DNA of 64,000 bases from Maledivibacter sp. GTDB lineage: Bacteria > Bacillota > Clostridia > Peptostreptococcales > Caminicellaceae. The stretch spans positions 62,001 through 126,000 of the forward strand of contig JAOASB010000037.1 of assembly GCA_025210375.1 (NCBI GenBank), given 5' to 3'. The translations under genes were made by a program, and so were the position numbers. The notes under the pieces were generated by a model. It was not told the origin of the DNA, did no database searches, and saw only the letters and a program-made list of their open reading frames with translations. This document shows positions 14,970-55,070 of the stretch, one piece after another; the first letter of the stretch is position 1; the number at the start of each line of letters is the position of its first letter.

Positions 14970-15145
14970 AACTTAATAATATTATATTGTAATGGAAGTT
15001 GGGTGTGATTCCCACACAAGTGCGTTGCTGTAATTACTGAGCTGCTTTTTATTTAATGTTTAACATTAACCACTGAGAGATTGGGAAGGTTTAAAAGTAG
15101 CAACGAAGTTTAGTCAGAATACATCAATATAATATGGTATTTGTA
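14970..15145 (+). ncRNA. Cobalamin riboswitch
   Basis: Shows the ordered landmarks of the class: GGAAGTTGGGTGTGATTCCC, then ACACAAGTGCGTTGCTGTAA (the CGCTACTGTAA-like segment), CCACTGAGAG, TTGGGAAGGT and a degenerate B12 box AGTCAGAATAC near 15113-15123. It precedes two intrinsic terminators and a btuFCD-like operon. Cobalamin binding would favour termination, reducing importer synthesis when B12 is plentiful. Boundaries are approximate. Confidence 0.9.
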
Positions 15146-36453: not shown

Positions 36454-38328
36454 TTATTTTTTTATCTGGGCTACTATATCCTTATATATACTCTCAGCAT
36501 CTAAATTGTGATGCTTAAAAAGTTTTTCTGCATTTCCATGCTCAACGAATTTATCCGGGAAAGCATATACTTTAGTATTCCTATCCTTAACTCCGTTTTT
36601 GCTCAGCATCTCTAGTATTTGACTGCCAAATCCACCTATTTTAACATTATCCTCTAATGTAAATATATTGATAGTGTCCTTTATGCCTTCCAATATGGTA
36701 GCTTCATCAAGGGGTTTTACAAATCTAGCATTTATGACTGTACTTTCTATCCCATCTTTTTTAAGAAGCTTTGCTACTTCAAGAGCAGTAGCTACCATTT
36801 TACCTACCCCAATGATACATACATCCTTACCCTTGAATATGATCTCAGCCTTTTCATGGTATATATCCTCTATATTATTTTCTGTCTCTATCTCTTTACT
36901 TATGCCCCTAGGGTATCTTATAGCAATAGGGGATTTTTGAGAAAATGCATACTTCATCATTATTCTAAGCTCATTCCCATCCTTAGGTAAAAGAATTTTT
37001 AAGTTTGGTATATTGCTTAGATAGGATAAGTCAAATACTCCATGATGGGTCTCACCATCCTGACCCACTATACCAGCCCTGTCAATGCCAAAAACCACAG
37101 GCAAATTCTGAAGACAGACATCGTGTAAAACTTGATCATATCCTCTTTGGAGGAATGTAGAATAAACAGCGAACACAGGTCTTAGTCCATTTGAAGCTAA
37201 TCCAGCAGCAAAGGTTACTGCATGCTGTTCAGCTATACCTACATCAAAAAATCTTTTAGGATATTTCTTGGAAAACTGACTCAGTCCAGTTCCCGATGGC
37301 ATTGCGGCAGTAATTGCAACGATATCTTCATTTTCCTCAGCCAATCCTATTAGTTCTTCACCAAATATCTCGGAATATGTCTGTCCCTCTGATTTTTTTA
37401 ATTTTTTACCAGTTTTAATATCAAAGGCACTAATACCATGAAATTTATCTGGATATCTCTCAGCAAATCCATATCCTTTTCCTTTCTTCGTGATAGTATG
37501 AATCAAAACTGGTCCCTTCATTTTTTTCGCTCTCTTCAAAACCTCCGTAAGTTCTTCAACATCATGGCCATTTACAGGCCCAATATATGTAAAACCAAGT
37601 TCTTCAAATAATACTCCTGGTACAAAAAAGTATTTTATTGTTTCCTTAGCTTTTTGTGCAGTCTTAACCACCGATTTACCTATAGCAGGAATTTTGCTCA
37701 ATATCTGCTCAACATCATCCTTCATTTTATAGTAGGCAGGATCTGTCCTTAATCTATTAAGATATCTAGATAACCCCCCGACATTTTCAGAGATTGACAT
37801 TTCATTATCGTTTAGAATGACAATAAAATCAGTTTCTGAATGTCCAGCATGATTTAGGGCTTCAAAGGCCATCCCCCCAGTTAATGCACCATCCCCAATA
37901 ACTGAAATAATGGAGTATTTATTCCCTTTTATATCCCTTGCCATTGCCATACCTAATCCAGCAGAAATCGAAGTGCTGCTATGGCCGGTTTCAAAGCAAT
38001 CATGAATACTCTCCTTACATTTTGGGAAACCACTTAATCCCTTGAACTTTCTAAGGGAATCAAATTTTTCTAGTCTTCCAGTAAGGATTTTATGTACATA
38101 GGCTTGATGTCCAACATCCCATACTATTTTATCCTTAGGGGTATCAAAAACCCTGTGCAATGCAATCGTGAGTTCAACAACACCTAGATTTGAAGCTAAA
38201 TGCCCACCGGTTTTAGACACAGATTCTATCAAAAAATTTCTTATTTCCTTACTAAGCTTTTTAATATCCTCATAGCTTAATTTTTTTAAATCCTCCGGTG
38301 AGTTAATCTTTGTAATAAGCTTATACAA
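36454..38328 (-). CDS. dxs: 1-deoxy-D-xylulose-5-phosphate synthase
   Basis: A 624-aa thiamine-diphosphate enzyme making DXP from pyruvate and glyceraldehyde-3-phosphate, the first step of the MEP isoprenoid pathway. TPP site: HQAYVHKILTGR, GHSSTSISAGLGMA and VIGDGALTGGMAFEALNHAG; the pyrimidine-binding and transketolase C domains follow (EQHAVTFAAGLA; GIVGQDGETHHG). Full length. Start TTG 38328 with a GAGAT ribosome site. Lies with ispA (farnesyl-PP synthase) of the same pathway, separated by OLE/oapA. Confidence 0.96.
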   Translation of the reverse strand: MYKLITKINSPEDLKKLSYEDIKKLSKEIRNFLIESVSKTGGHLASNLGVVELTIALHRVFDTPKDKIVWDVGHQAYVHKILTGRLEKFDSLRKFKGLSGFPKCKESIHDCFETGHSSTSISAGLGMAMARDIKGNKYSIISVIGDGALTGGMAFEALNHAGHSETDFIVILNDNEMSISENVGGLSRYLNRLRTDPAYYKMKDDVEQILSKIPAIGKSVVKTAQKAKETIKYFFVPGVLFEELGFTYIGPVNGHDVEELTEVLKRAKKMKGPVLIHTITKKGKGYGFAERYPDKFHGISAFDIKTGKKLKKSEGQTYSEIFGEELIGLAEENEDIVAITAAMPSGTGLSQFSKKYPKRFFDVGIAEQHAVTFAAGLASNGLRPVFAVYSTFLQRGYDQVLHDVCLQNLPVVFGIDRAGIVGQDGETHHGVFDLSYLSNIPNLKILLPKDGNELRIMMKYAFSQKSPIAIRYPRGISKEIETENNIEDIYHEKAEIIFKGKDVCIIGVGKMVATALEVAKLLKKDGIESTVINARFVKPLDEATILEGIKDTINIFTLEDNVKIGGFGSQILEMLSKNGVKDRNTKVYAFPDKFVEHGNAEKLFKHHNLDAESIYKDIVAQIKK

Positions 38329-38406: not shown

Positions 38407-39030
38407 TTATTTTTTCTTCTTATTATCTGGCAATAAATCTATTTTCAAATTATTTTTTATCCAACAAAGAAATTGTGAAACCTTGTACACTATCTCCTTA
38501 GATTTTTTCAATGCTATCTCTTTTCCTAGGGCTTTTCCACCCACCGTAATAGCTGCCACAACTCCACTTAATATAAAGCTATAGTATACAGTATTGATAC
38601 CACTATAAATTCTGCTTACTTGCACCAAAATTATTGCTCCAGCAGCACCACTTATAATACCTGCAATGTCACCTATAACATCGTTACAGAAATTAGATAC
38701 TGGGCCAGCATTTTTTATTAATTTTATGGCGTATTTTGCAGCATCTATCTTCTGTGCAGCCATTGAATGAAATGGCTTTTCATCGGCTGTAGCAACTGCA
38801 ATACCTATTAAATCCGAAACTATTCCTATAAATACAATTATGATTAAAATCATGAATGCCACAGAGATAGTTGTATTCCTAAGTAATGCCTCGGAAGCAG
38901 AACTCATAAAAACAGCCAATATAAAGGTTATTATTGTTATATTAACTACCCATTTTATATTATAGCCCCTTATATTTATAGCTTTATTGTTTTTCCCATT
39001 GTCTTTTATTTTCTTAGCCAATTTAAACAC
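38407..39030 (-). CDS. oapA: OLE-associated membrane protein OapA
   Basis: A ~207-aa protein with four hydrophobic segments (about 27-47, 53-78, 120-140, 145-165), cationic ends (KKSKEIV, DNKKKK) and the charged loop ATADEKPFHSMAAQKIDAAKYA. It lies directly downstream of the OLE RNA, the position of OapA, which binds OLE and places it at the membrane. Often auto-annotated as a CorB-like Mg2+/Co2+ transporter. Start GTG 39030 or, with better ribosome spacing, TTG 39021. OLE/OapA complexes are linked to Mg2+, energy and alcohol or cold stress tolerance. Confidence 0.88.
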   Translation of the reverse strand: MFKLAKKIKDNGKNNKAINIRGYNIKWVVNITIITFILAVFMSSASEALLRNTTISVAFMILIIIVFIGIVSDLIGIAVATADEKPFHSMAAQKIDAAKYAIKLIKNAGPVSNFCNDVIGDIAGIISGAAGAIILVQVSRIYSGINTVYYSFILSGVVAAITVGGKALGKEIALKKSKEIVYKVSQFLCWIKNNLKIDLLPDNKKKK

Positions 39031-39073: not shown

Positions 39074-39103
39074 CAAAAAAACTGATAGCTTATGCCATCA
39101 GTT
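39074..39103 (-). terminator. Intrinsic terminator between OLE RNA and oapA
   Basis: Minus strand AACTGAT / ATCAGTT stem, 10-nt loop, then seven T. It would end the OLE transcript ~670 nt after its promoter while letting some readthrough into oapA. Confidence 0.8.
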
Positions 39104-39149
39104 ATAGACAACCAATTATATAGGTTTATTACCTACACTCTCTATAATC

Positions 39150-39750
39150 AGTTATTCTTATTTTTCACTTGAGGGCAATATATTAAGTAAACTTTGCAGC
39201 TTAGGTCCAGTAGGATTTCCCATATAAGTACTGTTCCGTTGCCGGATCAGCGGTTTCCCTTTAAACCCATATTTATATTGTCGCCAAATATAAAACTAGA
39301 TTACCACTAAGTCTGCACTATAATCCTTAATATATCTCCACCTAGGAACAGTCTAGGAGTTTTCCTCAACAGGCAAGCTAATTCCTAGCCTCTTTTGCAG
39401 CATAGGTTTAGGATACAATTGCATCCATTTTATGGGCCCATAAAACAGATTTCTTTACATATCCGTCTACCTACCCCACTCAAGGCAGGCTACACTGCAC
39501 GTAGCAGAAAAACCACCACATTGCAGGTTCATCCTAAATTACAAAATATAATTTAGGTCTCCGCGGAAAGAGGGTCAACGCCCACATGCCATTGTGGATC
39601 GCCCCCAGATCCTTACTCCCAGCATAAGCCCCCGACTGGGCGTCGAAAGCCAATACCAGGAACTTCATCGATGTGCCCTTTGACGGATTTTTAGCCCCGC
39701 CTTCAAAATTAGTAGCTCTGACTAGAATACTGCACCACTCAAGTGCAGAT
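39150..39750 (-). ncRNA. ole: OLE RNA (ornate large extremophilic RNA)
   Basis: A ~600-nt region with no real protein gene, unusually GC-rich and rich in hairpins, between the DUF212/ispA genes and oapA. This is the published OLE gene neighbourhood (ispA/dxs/tlyA/argR/recN). The 5' and 3' ends pair: CACTTGAG (39738-39745 region) with CTCAAGTG (39165-39172), enclosing ~580 nt. Conserved-looking blocks include CCGTCAAAGGGCACATCGA and GGTATTGGCTTTCGACGCC near the 5' part. OLE forms a membrane ribonucleoprotein with OapA. Assignment uses size, context, partner and end pairing; no covariance search was run. Confidence 0.88.
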
Positions 39751-39753
39751 GAC

Positions 39754-39782
39754 ATTATAACATAAAAATTTAAATTTTTCAA
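39754..39782 (-). promoter_or_regulatory. Promoter of the OLE RNA
   Basis: Minus strand TTGAAA (39777-39782), exactly 17 nt, TATAAT (39754-39759). Transcription would start near 39747, right before the 5' OLE stem CTGCACTTGAG. Confidence 0.8.
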
Positions 39783-39814: not shown

Positions 39815-40264
39815 TTAAATCATTAGATTAGCAATCACAATCCCTAAAATCGCACCAGCAAAAACCTCTACAGGGGTATGACCTACCAATTCTTTTAGCC
39901 TCTTTTCCTGTATATGTTTATCCCTATGATTATGCATATCTTCTAACATTCTATTTAATATTATGGCTTGCTTACCAACTGCTCGTCTGACTCCTGCTGC
40001 ATCGTACATTACAATCAACGCAAATACCAAGGATATTGCATATGAAACTGAATCCCAACCAGTTTTGAGTCCCACTGAAGTAGATAATCCCATTACAATA
40101 GATGAGTGGGAACTCGGCATACCACCGGAACCTACAAATCTATATAAATCAAATTTTTTCTGAGTCAAAAGAGTAAGGACAACCTTTAACGCTTGTGCAA
40201 TAAACCAGGAGGTAAGGGCCACATTAAATACTTCATTTTTCATAATTCCATTAAAAAATGTCAC
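39815..40264 (-). CDS. Divergent PAP2 family protein (DUF212)
   Basis: A 149-aa membrane protein of the DUF212/YuiD family. Motif GGMPSSHSSIVMGL (PSSH as in PAP2 phosphatases) and TPVEVFAGAILGIVIA at the C-terminus. Possibly acts on a lipid (poly-prenyl) phosphate; the Arg-containing first PAP2 motif is weak. Start GTG 40264 with AAGGAGG. It sits between ispA and the OLE promoter in the isoprenoid cluster, which supports a polyprenyl-phosphate substrate as inference. Confidence 0.87.
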   Translation of the reverse strand: MTFFNGIMKNEVFNVALTSWFIAQALKVVLTLLTQKKFDLYRFVGSGGMPSSHSSIVMGLSTSVGLKTGWDSVSYAISLVFALIVMYDAAGVRRAVGKQAIILNRMLEDMHNHRDKHIQEKRLKELVGHTPVEVFAGAILGIVIANLMI

Positions 40265-40276
40265 TTGATTTCCTCC

Positions 40277-41167
40277 TTAATAATCTCTATCTTCTAAATA
40301 TTTAGCCAGCCCCCTTAAAAATTCAGCCTTTTCACCAAATATTTCCAAGGATTTACGACTGTCTTCTATCAATCTAGATACAATTCTTCTTGATTCTTCT
40401 ATTCCATATAGTGATGGATATGTGGATTTTTCATTATATACATCGCTTCCAACTTTTTTCCCTAACTTTTTTTCATCCCCTATTACATCAAGTATATCAT
40501 CAACTATTTGGAATGCTAGTCCAATACATTTACCATAGTTTTGTAGTTTTTCATACTCATCTTCTGTAGCCTCACCAAGCATTGCCCCAGCATTAATTGC
40601 AGCTTCAAGCATTACGGAGGTCTTATGATGATGGATAAAATCCAGGGTCTGTGCATCGACTTTCTTTCCTTCACATTCCAAGTCCACCACTTGACCACCA
40701 ATCATCCCATTAACTCCAGAGGCCTTAGAAATAATCTGCATAGCCTTTACCCCTTTATGGAGGAGATGGGGATTTCGATCTATTTTGTCAATCATGGTTT
40801 CAAATGCAAGATTCAAAAGACCGTCCCCTGCTAAAATAGCAATTCCTTCACCATATACCTTATGATTAGTAAGTTTGCCTCTTCTATAGTCATCGTTATC
40901 CATGGCTGGTAAGTCATCATGTATCAATGAATATGTATGTATCATTTCTATTGCTAAAGCAAATTCTACGGCATCATTTATATTACCACCTAACATCTCG
41001 CAAACCTCTAAAAGTAGTACTGGTCTTAATCTCTTTCCTCCGGCCTTTAGACTATACTCCATTGATTCAAACACAGTTTGCTGGAGTCCGCTTTTATTTT
41101 CAAAACATTGGCATATTTTTTTATCTATTTCAGTTTTTCTTTGTAAGAGCTGTGATTTAAAGTCCAT
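40277..41167 (-). CDS. ispA: Polyprenyl synthetase, farnesyl-diphosphate synthase type
   Basis: A 296-aa prenyltransferase with first Asp-rich motif LIHDDLPAMDNDDYRRG (DDx4D type, ~80-96) and second FQIVDDILDVIGD, plus the GKRLRP substrate loop. Condenses DMAPP/IPP to farnesyl diphosphate. Start ATG 41167 with GAGGAGG; the frame up to 41191 overlaps xseB coding. Operon order xseA-xseB-ispA is conserved in Firmicutes. Confidence 0.94.
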   Translation of the reverse strand: MDFKSQLLQRKTEIDKKICQCFENKSGLQQTVFESMEYSLKAGGKRLRPVLLLEVCEMLGGNINDAVEFALAIEMIHTYSLIHDDLPAMDNDDYRRGKLTNHKVYGEGIAILAGDGLLNLAFETMIDKIDRNPHLLHKGVKAMQIISKASGVNGMIGGQVVDLECEGKKVDAQTLDFIHHHKTSVMLEAAINAGAMLGEATEDEYEKLQNYGKCIGLAFQIVDDILDVIGDEKKLGKKVGSDVYNEKSTYPSLYGIEESRRIVSRLIEDSRKSLEIFGEKAEFLRGLAKYLEDRDY

Positions 41168-41168
41168 T

Positions 41169-41420
41169 TTAATCCTCCTCTGTAACAACAAAAGGCCTTT
41201 CTTTCCCTACATTATCCTCCCCTAATAATAATGTAATCCTTTGCTGGGCATGGCTTAATGTATTATTACAATACCTATAAAGCTTTATACCCTCTTCAAA
41301 ATATTTCAAGGATTCTTCAAGGGATAGGTTGCCTTCTTCAAGCTGTCTTACAAGTTCCTTTAATCTAGTTATATTACCTTCAAAATCTCCGATATTCATA
41401 CCATCATCATGATTTATCAA
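41169..41420 (-). CDS. xseB: Exodeoxyribonuclease VII small subunit
   Basis: A 76-83-aa helical protein with the family pattern [36 protein letters not shown], split across two helices. Binds XseA to form ExoVII, which degrades single-stranded DNA. Start ATG 41420 overlaps xseA by 14 nt; ATG 41399 is an alternative. Overlaps or abuts the ispA start, so translation is probably coupled. Confidence 0.93.
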
Positions 41421-53559: not shown

Positions 53560-53705
53560 AACTCTATAAAGCTTGTTTAATTCCCTGTTCAATGTGTCCG
53601 ATTTTGTAATTCCTAAGAACATACTACTTTCGTTTGCTATAACACTCCGAGGGCTTAACTTCGGATACAACGATTCCTACACCTCAAACATAACTGTTTA
53701 AGTAG
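53560..53705 (-). other. Right end of the IS607-type element; putative omega RNA region
   Basis: Non-coding sequence immediately after the tnpB stop. Minus strand has hairpin-forming blocks: AACGAAAGTAGTATGTTC, TCCGAAGTTAAGCCCTCGGA. In TnpB elements this position encodes the omega RNA scaffold that ends at the element terminus and reads guide sequence from flanking DNA. The exact terminus could not be fixed. Confidence 0.5.
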
Positions 53706-54821
53706 TTATGCTGAATATCTGCTTAAATTAATTGAAGCATTAAAATCTCTGTCAATTACTGCTCCACATTCTTCGCAGATATAAGTTCTTTCTGATAGCG
53801 ATAATTTAGTCTTTTTATGTCCACACTCACTACATATTTTTGATGATGGATACCATTTATCAGCTTGGGCAAATTCAATTCCATAGAATTCACATTTATA
53901 TTGAAGTTGTCTTTTAAACTCATATAATCCTTGCCCAGCTATGGCTTTAGATAAATGTTTATTCTTCATCATACCTTTTATATTAAGTGTTTCCATAACT
54001 ACTCTTGACGGCTTGGCTTTCACTATCTTAGTAGTTGCTTGGTGTAAATGATTGTTCCTAATATTAGATAATCTTCTATGAAGTAATCTAATCTGCTTTT
54101 CAAGTTTTATAATGTTGCTTGTTTTGACGAACTTCCTCCCTTCTCTATTTATTTCATATTTTTTTGATTTTTTACGTTGCAACCTACGTAATCTTTTTTC
54201 TAATTTCTTAACTAATCTTGTTTTATTGATATTTTTAAAAGTTATTCCATTGGAGCATATGGCAAGGTCTTTTATGCCCACATCTATGCCTATGCTTTCA
54301 CCAGTTAATTCTACTTTTGTTTTTTCCTTTTCAATACCTACAGATAAGTACCAATACTTCCCGTCAAAACTTACCCTTGGATTAGTATATTTAACATTCA
54401 TAGGTATTTGCTCCGCTGTTCTAATCCAACCTACTTTTTCAATAAGAACCATTTTAGATTTGACTTTTAATTTCATATTATCATTGTAAAATGATGGTTT
54501 ACTTTTCCTTCTGCTTTTAAATCTTGGCTTATCTGCCAATCCTTTAAAGAATCTTTTATAAGCATTACACCCATCTTTTACAGCTTGTTTTGCTACATTG
54601 TTTGATACTTCTTTAAGCCATTTATACTCCTTTGTTTCCTTTATTATGGTAATTTCTTTTCTTAAATCACCATCTTTAATAAATTTCCCACCACTCTTAT
54701 AATTTTCTTCTTGTTTTGCAAGTGTCCAATTATATATAAATCTTGCAGTTCCAACTGATTGCCATAATTTTTGTTCCTGCTCTATATTGGGAATAATTCT
54801 AATTTTCTTTGATAGTATCAT
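53706..54821 (-). CDS. tnpB: RNA-guided endonuclease TnpB (IS607-type)
   Basis: A ~371-aa TnpB. N-terminal helix-turn-helix (IRIIPNIEQEQKLWQSVGTARFIYN split over helix and turn), RuvC-I GIDVGIKDLAI (Asp), RuvC-II VVMETLNIKGM (Glu), zinc ribbon CSECGHKKTKLS / CEECG, RuvC-III DRDFNASINL (Asp). All catalytic residues are present, so the nuclease may be active. Start ATG 54821 with AAGGAG; overlaps the tail of the broken tnpA. The partner is a serine recombinase remnant, placing it in IS607 rather than IS605. Confidence 0.9.
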   Translation of the reverse strand: MILSKKIRIIPNIEQEQKLWQSVGTARFIYNWTLAKQEENYKSGGKFIKDGDLRKEITIIKETKEYKWLKEVSNNVAKQAVKDGCNAYKRFFKGLADKPRFKSRRKSKPSFYNDNMKLKVKSKMVLIEKVGWIRTAEQIPMNVKYTNPRVSFDGKYWYLSVGIEKEKTKVELTGESIGIDVGIKDLAICSNGITFKNINKTRLVKKLEKRLRRLQRKKSKKYEINREGRKFVKTSNIIKLEKQIRLLHRRLSNIRNNHLHQATTKIVKAKPSRVVMETLNIKGMMKNKHLSKAIAGQGLYEFKRQLQYKCEFYGIEFAQADKWYPSSKICSECGHKKTKLSLSERTYICEECGAVIDRDFNASINLSRYSA

Positions 54822-55070
54822 CTTCAATCAACTCCTTAATCATCTTTTTAGCTTTATTGGCTCTTTTACCTTGGAGTTTGGTACTGAATACAGTTACTAT
54901 CTGAATAACCTATCTTTATACAAAACAACAACCCTATCAACTTCATTTTGAGTTATGGGTTTTATTAACTCTTTTAATCCTTTTTTCTTATAATTAATGC
55001 CACTTCTTACTAGATAATAATACCATAAAATTCCCACTTTGAATATATTTTATTCTTTGCATTATTATAT
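54799..55070 (-). pseudogene. tnpA: Remnant of IS607 serine-recombinase TnpA
   Basis: Minus-strand frame gives GLKELIKPITQNEVDRVVV then LYKDRLFR and two stops (TAGTAA), and a second frame gives VTVFSTKLQGKRANKAKKM, ending at TAG 54799-54801. These match the middle (GLKxL...VDRVVVxxKDRLxRF) and C-terminus (FSxxLxGKRxxK) of IS607 TnpA. The N-terminal catalytic serine region and the segment between are missing, so no transposase is made. Confidence 0.8.

Follow-up and report, generated by a model that had tools for sequence, protein, structure and literature searches.

OLE is a poorly understood RNA of bacteria and, to our knowledge, one of their largest structured RNAs for which no biochemical function is known. 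The locus described here lies in a stretch of 64,000 nucleotides from a Maledivibacter sp. contig (the window), and raises the question of whether an OLE RNA can be made as a transcription unit of its own inside the gene cluster that surrounds it, and how the neighboring partner gene oapA is then reached. In Halalkalibacterium (Bacillus) halodurans a single long RNA covers the cluster, and OLE is regarded as a product of its processing (PMC12265935, PMC9723947), and yet the ole gene inside this large operon has its own promoter and yields an abundant RNA of about 630 nt (PMC9723947). According to our analysis, the locus in the window is best read, with a probability of roughly 0.85, as an ordinary OLE gene with its own predicted promoter, a closing stem, and a putative terminator with partial readthrough into oapA.

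A full-length OLE RNA in the isoprenoid/sporulation cluster

The earlier note, made from the window alone, had placed an OLE RNA of about 600 nt in its OapA context and had proposed a covariance-model check of the minus strand and a genome search for oapB and oapC; all of this is borne out. The RF01071 match (cmscan; cut-off, 50 bits) runs on the minus strand from 39754 to 39156, covers model positions 1 to 616, and reaches 526.7 bits (E value, 1.3e-151), with oapA, DUF212, and ispA around it (Table 1). A stem at model positions 204 to 235 is shortened distally and the rest of the whole model is aligned, including both dimer-contact motifs, which were described as an A-rich P4 loop and a palindromic GGCC in the P9 loop (PMC12286853) and which appear in the RF01071 alignment as CUAAAAAUCCG and GGGCCC, respectively. 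Segments within OLE have a GC content of 0.34 to 0.50, and the flanks of about 0.25 to 0.38. The RNA is a genuine, ordinary full-length OLE RNA, present as one copy in the 4.56-Mb genome. The first bases of the model overlap the −10 box of the ole promoter, and the 5′ end of the RNA probably lies near 39747, inside the match span. An 82-amino-acid open reading frame within OLE (39782 to 39534) was rejected as a gene, since it is mechanical only and its start falls in the promoter.

The genes on the minus strand follow the order ispA, DUF212, OLE, oapA, dxs, tlyA, argR, and recN, that is, an isoprenoid/sporulation gene cluster. The gene directly downstream of OLE has homologues at the same place in related loci, and its product matched no Pfam family. 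Homologues of the two other partners were found elsewhere in the genome: an OapB-like gene between map and infA (E value of 1.6e-13 to the solved OapB structure 7k9b) and a YbxF/OapC-like gene (oapC/ybxF) between rpoC and rpsL. The genome also encodes one CNNM-domain protein of about 424 amino acids that is MpfA-like (G000:C45:52985-53521, L143); MpfA was reported to anticorrelate with OLE, whose carriers typically have at most one copy (PMC11332333).

Table 1. Features of the OLE locus (positions in the window)
Feature	Position	Strand	Description
ispA, farnesyl diphosphate synthase	40277..41191	-	NF045485, E 5.8e-110
DUF212 (PAP2-like), upstream of OLE	39815..40264	-	PF02681, E 5.5e-52
Predicted sigma-A type promoter, extended -10	39754..39782	-	TTGAAA-N17-TATAAT with TG; start predicted about 39747
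OLE RNA	39156..39754	-	RF01071 full-length match, 526.7 bits
Closing stem, 5′ strand	39738..39745	-	CACTTGAG; continues to 39734 past bulged T
Closing stem, 3′ strand	39166..39173	-	CTCAAGTG; inner part reaches 39176
Second hairpin, spacer between OLE and terminator	39107..39158	-	predicted fold only
Putative intrinsic terminator	39080..39103	-	AACTGATGGC-ATAA-GCTATCAGTT + TTTTT; orthologous to CTGATRGC/GCTATCAG terminator in related Clostridia
oapA	38407..39021	-	TTG start behind AAAAGGTG; 204 aa; four hydrophobic segments; Lys-rich ends
dxs	36454..38328	-	TIGR00204, E 7.1e-257

Two further structured RNAs were observed in the window. A RAGATH-18 RNA (53581 to 53653, minus strand, 74.8 bits) lies directly downstream of a TnpB-like gene (53706 to 54827, minus strand); its most likely role is that of guide RNA for an IS607-type TnpB (cf. 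PMC11061315), and a cobalamin riboswitch occupies 14971 to 15142 on the plus strand (43.6 bits; cut-off, 31.5).

For comparison, OLE loci were collected by a covariance search in the order and the class, combined with OapA homology, which yielded 119 distinct loci. OLE was found in 64 of the 148 sampled genomes of the order and in 114 of the 291 of the class.

A promoter at the 5′ end of OLE

The promoter that had been proposed immediately upstream of OLE is confirmed at 39782 to 39754: TTGAAA (39782 to 39777) is followed by a 17-nt spacer and TATAAT (39759 to 39754), with a TG one base upstream of the −10 box. It agrees with the consensus at 11 of 12 positions and is the top of the promoter-like hits between 38300 and 41300. 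Since that region holds 12 such sites against 11.7 in shuffled sequences, the promoter is not significant from the window sequence alone, and its significance was taken from the comparison across loci. When the 12 hexamer positions plus TG were scored within the 75 nt upstream of OLE, with positions further upstream and resampled sequences as controls, a score of at least 10 was reached at 83% of 118 OLE loci (control positions, 2.2%; resampled sequences, 6%) and a score of at least 11 at 65% (0.5% and 0.4%, respectively). Among the 98 good sites, TG is present in 92 and the 17-nt spacer in 86. A promoter of its own thus appears to be near-universal among the OLE loci compared. Sixteen loci show no recognizable promoter, and in some of them OLE starts close behind the DUF212 stop codon (e.g., L086, L091, L093, and L131), so that OLE as a class does not depend on having one.

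A covarying stem closes the two ends

The 8-bp pairing of the two RNA ends that the earlier note had described is real and covaries, with one correction: its 3′ strand is 39173 to 39166, not 39172 to 39165. Past the bulged T39737, the stem gains GG/CC and one G-T pair. Across the loci, the own 5′ and 3′ ends fold at a mean of −16.1 kcal/mol, compared with −10.0 kcal/mol for swapped ends, and the own combination is the better one in 115 of 118. The register was fixed at 11 nt after the conserved UUUAC, with one hand-placed gap for the six loci that belong to the window's family. In this register, pairs 3, 4, 5, and 6 are formed in 95, 96, 97, and 83% of 103 distinct sequences, whereas shuffled 3′ strands give means of 79, 81, 75, and 47% and maxima of 86, 86, 83, and 58%. 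Swaps include T-A to A-T and T-A to C-G; versions such as GTGG/CCAC, GATGG/CCATC, and GAGG/CCTC occur, and in one locus (L098) the stem extends to 17 bp (TTCTCAAAATTAAAGAC/GTCTTTAATTTTGAGAA). The relatedness of the loci inflates these statistics, but many distinct compensated pairs are seen, and we therefore deem the covariation of the closing stem across the aligned OLE sequences secure. In the RF01071 structure line both RNA ends are unpaired; the stem is probably P1 of the published OLE model.

A terminator inherited in one group of Clostridia

Before oapA, where an intrinsic terminator had been claimed, a candidate is indeed present, with a 10-bp stem containing four GC pairs and a T5 tail, and it has orthologous copies in relatives. 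The stretch from 39080 to 39164, which also includes the second hairpin, has a folding z-score of −5.7; the sequence of the spacer between OLE and the terminator is not conserved in relatives. The hairpin core CTGATRGC/GCTATCAG lies 3′ of OLE in 47 of the 119 loci, with a T-rich tail in 46 of the 47. Pairs −1 to 7 are intact in each of the 43 distinct versions, with five G-U pairs at pair 4, five at pair 6, and compensatory changes from A-U to G-C at pair 6 and from G-C to A-U at pair −1, while the loops vary freely between 2 and 7 nt.

The pattern occurs once in the window genome. Across 60 genomes of the order it has 17 places, 15 of them at the 3′ end of an OLE RNA; with the reversed pattern, used as a control, there were none. 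A general repeat was rejected on account of the single copy in the window genome and of the few non-OLE copies elsewhere, which sit at unrelated genes. The copy in one genome without OLE (G029) was likewise rejected as a remnant of a lost OLE locus, there being no dxs, ispA, DUF212, or oapA nearby. In a family without OLE in our sample (f31, L170, L171, L172, L173, and L174), a conserved terminator-like hairpin with a CTGATAGC/GCTATCAG stem and a loop of 3 to 4 nt was observed at an unrelated place, in L171 upstream of a NusB/RsmB-like gene.

The hairpin was found in the window's family, in Alkaliphilus-like genera, and in Geosporobacter, Tissierella, Anaerosalibacter, and relatives; it is absent from Bacillaceae, Acetobacterium, and others. 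Loci without it show any terminator-like structure in only 9 of 72 cases, and the median distance between OLE and oapA is 98 nt with the hairpin and 55 nt without it. Judged by its distribution in these sequences, the predicted terminator is a lineage trait, found mainly in Peptostreptococcales/Tissierellales relatives and inherited in one Clostridia group. The word terminator is absent from the open OLE papers that we searched, except for PMC10898510, where the passages found with it concern a riboswitch.

The near-perfect inverted repeat GCTGATAGC-n-GCTATCAGC could also be viewed as a DNA operator bound by a repressor instead of an RNA hairpin. We consider this highly improbable, given that the spacer ranges from 2 to 7 nt, that variants keep G-U pairs of the RNA without DNA symmetry, and that the T-rich tail follows in nearly every locus.

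The stem is far better conserved (identity, 0.94) than the loop (0.39) or the sequence just upstream (0.30). This could reflect a regulated attenuator, in which readthrough would respond to an alternative fold or to a bound partner such as OapA, so that OapA follows the OLE level; the position of the hairpin between the RNA and its partner gene, with no second promoter, would suit such a role, which is compatible with our preferred explanation and adds regulation to it. The terminators of rpsT are nearly as conserved, however, with a mean 5′-arm identity of 0.89 (best offset, 9 genomes), 8 of the 9 terminators found in the same genomes carrying AAAGCGTAC/GTACGCTTT or a near variant. This rpsT stem was observed across families (L199, L203, L204, L210, L214, L220, L223, and L224). 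Moreover, neither arm of the hairpin has a conserved contiguous partner in OLE: an antiterminator of this kind was rejected, the best contiguous 7-bp site being present in only 21 of 47 loci for the left arm and 4 of 47 for the right arm. A bulged pairing of the hairpin with CUAGUCAG near the 5′ end is possible; both partners are nearly invariant and hence hold no covariation information. An attenuator appears improbable to us.

Orthologous terminators in this order can thus be long-lived and sequence-stable, and they seem to keep their stems because a stem base changes only together with its partner. Since the rpsT stems are nearly as conserved, stem conservation points to maintained termination and is no evidence of an extra function; for the same reason, we gave up the view that the stem is a new functional element specific to OLE, despite its single copy per genome and its 47 loci. 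What the comparison leaves is an ancestral termination after OLE that this lineage has maintained, and no new regulatory element.

Additional OLE copies in relatives

The most unusual thing seen is a set of orphan OLE paralogues. One genome of the same order (G095; 4% estimated contamination of the assembly) has three OLE RNAs (L188; L189, 1591 to 2180; L190, 1576 to 2125). The canonical one precedes oapA without a recognizable promoter. The two orphan copies (494 and 398 bits) have unrelated neighbors, a YdcF-like protein and a MocR-type regulator in one case and a rhomboid-like protein in the other, and no oapA nearby. Each is preceded by a near-consensus promoter of its own, TTGAC[A/T]-17-TATAAT, and followed by a terminator-like hairpin of a different kind. 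These copies lend what we take to be independent support to a free-standing OLE unit. A Clostridiales-2 sRNA (RF02937) was observed just downstream of one of them (L190, 2200 to 2284). A second genome (G002) shows two OLE loci (L005; L006/L191) with diverged DUF212/ispA in a fragmented assembly of 450 contigs, and is probably a mixed bin rather than a case of true duplication.

A broader proposal can also be made, namely, that in one Clostridia lineage ole has become free-standing, that its inherited terminator serves as a control point at which regulated readthrough sets the OLE-to-OapA ratio, and that in at least one relative extra OLE genes have moved away from the oapA locus and act in trans with a shared OapA. 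We regard it as speculative and rather unlikely.

Proposed readthrough into oapA and the transcription unit

Behind the hairpin, an oapA promoter was found in none of the 47 loci at a score of at least 11 and in 3 at a score of at least 10. In the window, a promoter-like site at 39144 to 39115 was rejected as the oapA promoter, since transcripts from this position, which precedes the terminator, would run straight into the latter. With no oapA promoter behind the terminator, oapA would have to be reached by readthrough, either from the OLE promoter or from upstream. The earlier suggestion that oapA is expressed partly by readthrough fits this result; the readthrough itself is something that we infer.

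The conserved promoter and terminator, together with the orphan copies that have both, support the earlier proposal that OLE can be transcribed as an independent unit. The contrary possibility is that OLE is exclusively a processing product of a polycistronic ispA-DUF212-ole-oapA-dxs transcript, the promoter and terminator matches being due to chance or of minor importance. Co-transcription of the B. halodurans cluster (PMC12265935), promoter-like hits in this AT-rich region of the window that are no commoner than in shuffles, and some relatives without promoter and without terminator would all agree with it. Conversely, promoter and terminator are conserved at homologous places, and in G095 both accompany the orphan copies, away from the cluster. 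The CTGATRGC/GCTATCAG terminator occurs in none of the 16 loci that lack a recognizable promoter. We judge exclusive processing to be distinctly improbable; processing from a long RNA, as thought for B. halodurans, could take place here as well.

In the explanation that we prefer, an OLE unit with its own promoter and terminator, RNA polymerase with the housekeeping sigma factor would initiate at the promoter that shortly follows the stop codon of DUF212, as sequence and conservation suggest, and the resulting RNA of roughly 580 nt would close via the covarying stem that joins both ends. Most transcripts would stop at the terminator; oapA, dxs, and the genes beyond would be reached by the remaining minority and by the long operon transcript that arrives from upstream. 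Readthrough into oapA is proposed because the scan recognized no promoter between the terminator and this gene. Such an arrangement would yield more OLE RNA than oapA mRNA. Together with OapA, OapB, and OapC, whose genes are all present here, the RNA would then function as part of a membrane complex, as reported for OLE (PMC11332333, PMC12265935).

Comparison with known OLE systems

An own promoter of OLE is already published for B. halodurans, so that the window is a further instance and no discovery. What is new here is modest: the family-wide statistics on promoter and end stem and the lineage-specific terminator. Together, the conserved start, the closing stem, and the terminator would map the real ends of the RNA and thereby define a complete OLE molecule for structural work; the cryo-EM studies did not resolve the 5′/3′ domain 2 (PMC12265935), of which the covarying closing stem is a part. 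Lineages with and without the terminator also offer a natural comparison for the setting of the RNA-to-OapA ratio.

The locus resembles that of B. halodurans in its isoprenoid cluster, the adjoining oapA, a promoter of its own inside the cluster (PMC9723947), a full-length RF01071 match, and the presence of the partners OapA, OapB, and OapC. It differs in having the Clostridia-lineage terminator between OLE and oapA; in five Bacillaceae loci (L094, L106, L109, L112, and L134; B. halodurans itself is not among the loci) this terminator is missing and oapA follows OLE after a short gap. OLE variants 1 and 2 from TANB77 and RF39 belong to the same RNA class, and have P7 to P9 shortened or lack P7/P8 (PMC11332333), whereas the RNA of the window aligns to the whole model. 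The loci of Maledivibacter halophilus and Candidatus Petromonas tenebris, members of the same family as the window genome, share the same promoter, the closing stem CACTTGAG/CTCAAGTG or near variants of it, and the terminator CTGATGGC-n4-GCTATCAG, and differ from the window in the length and sequence of the spacer between OLE and the terminator.
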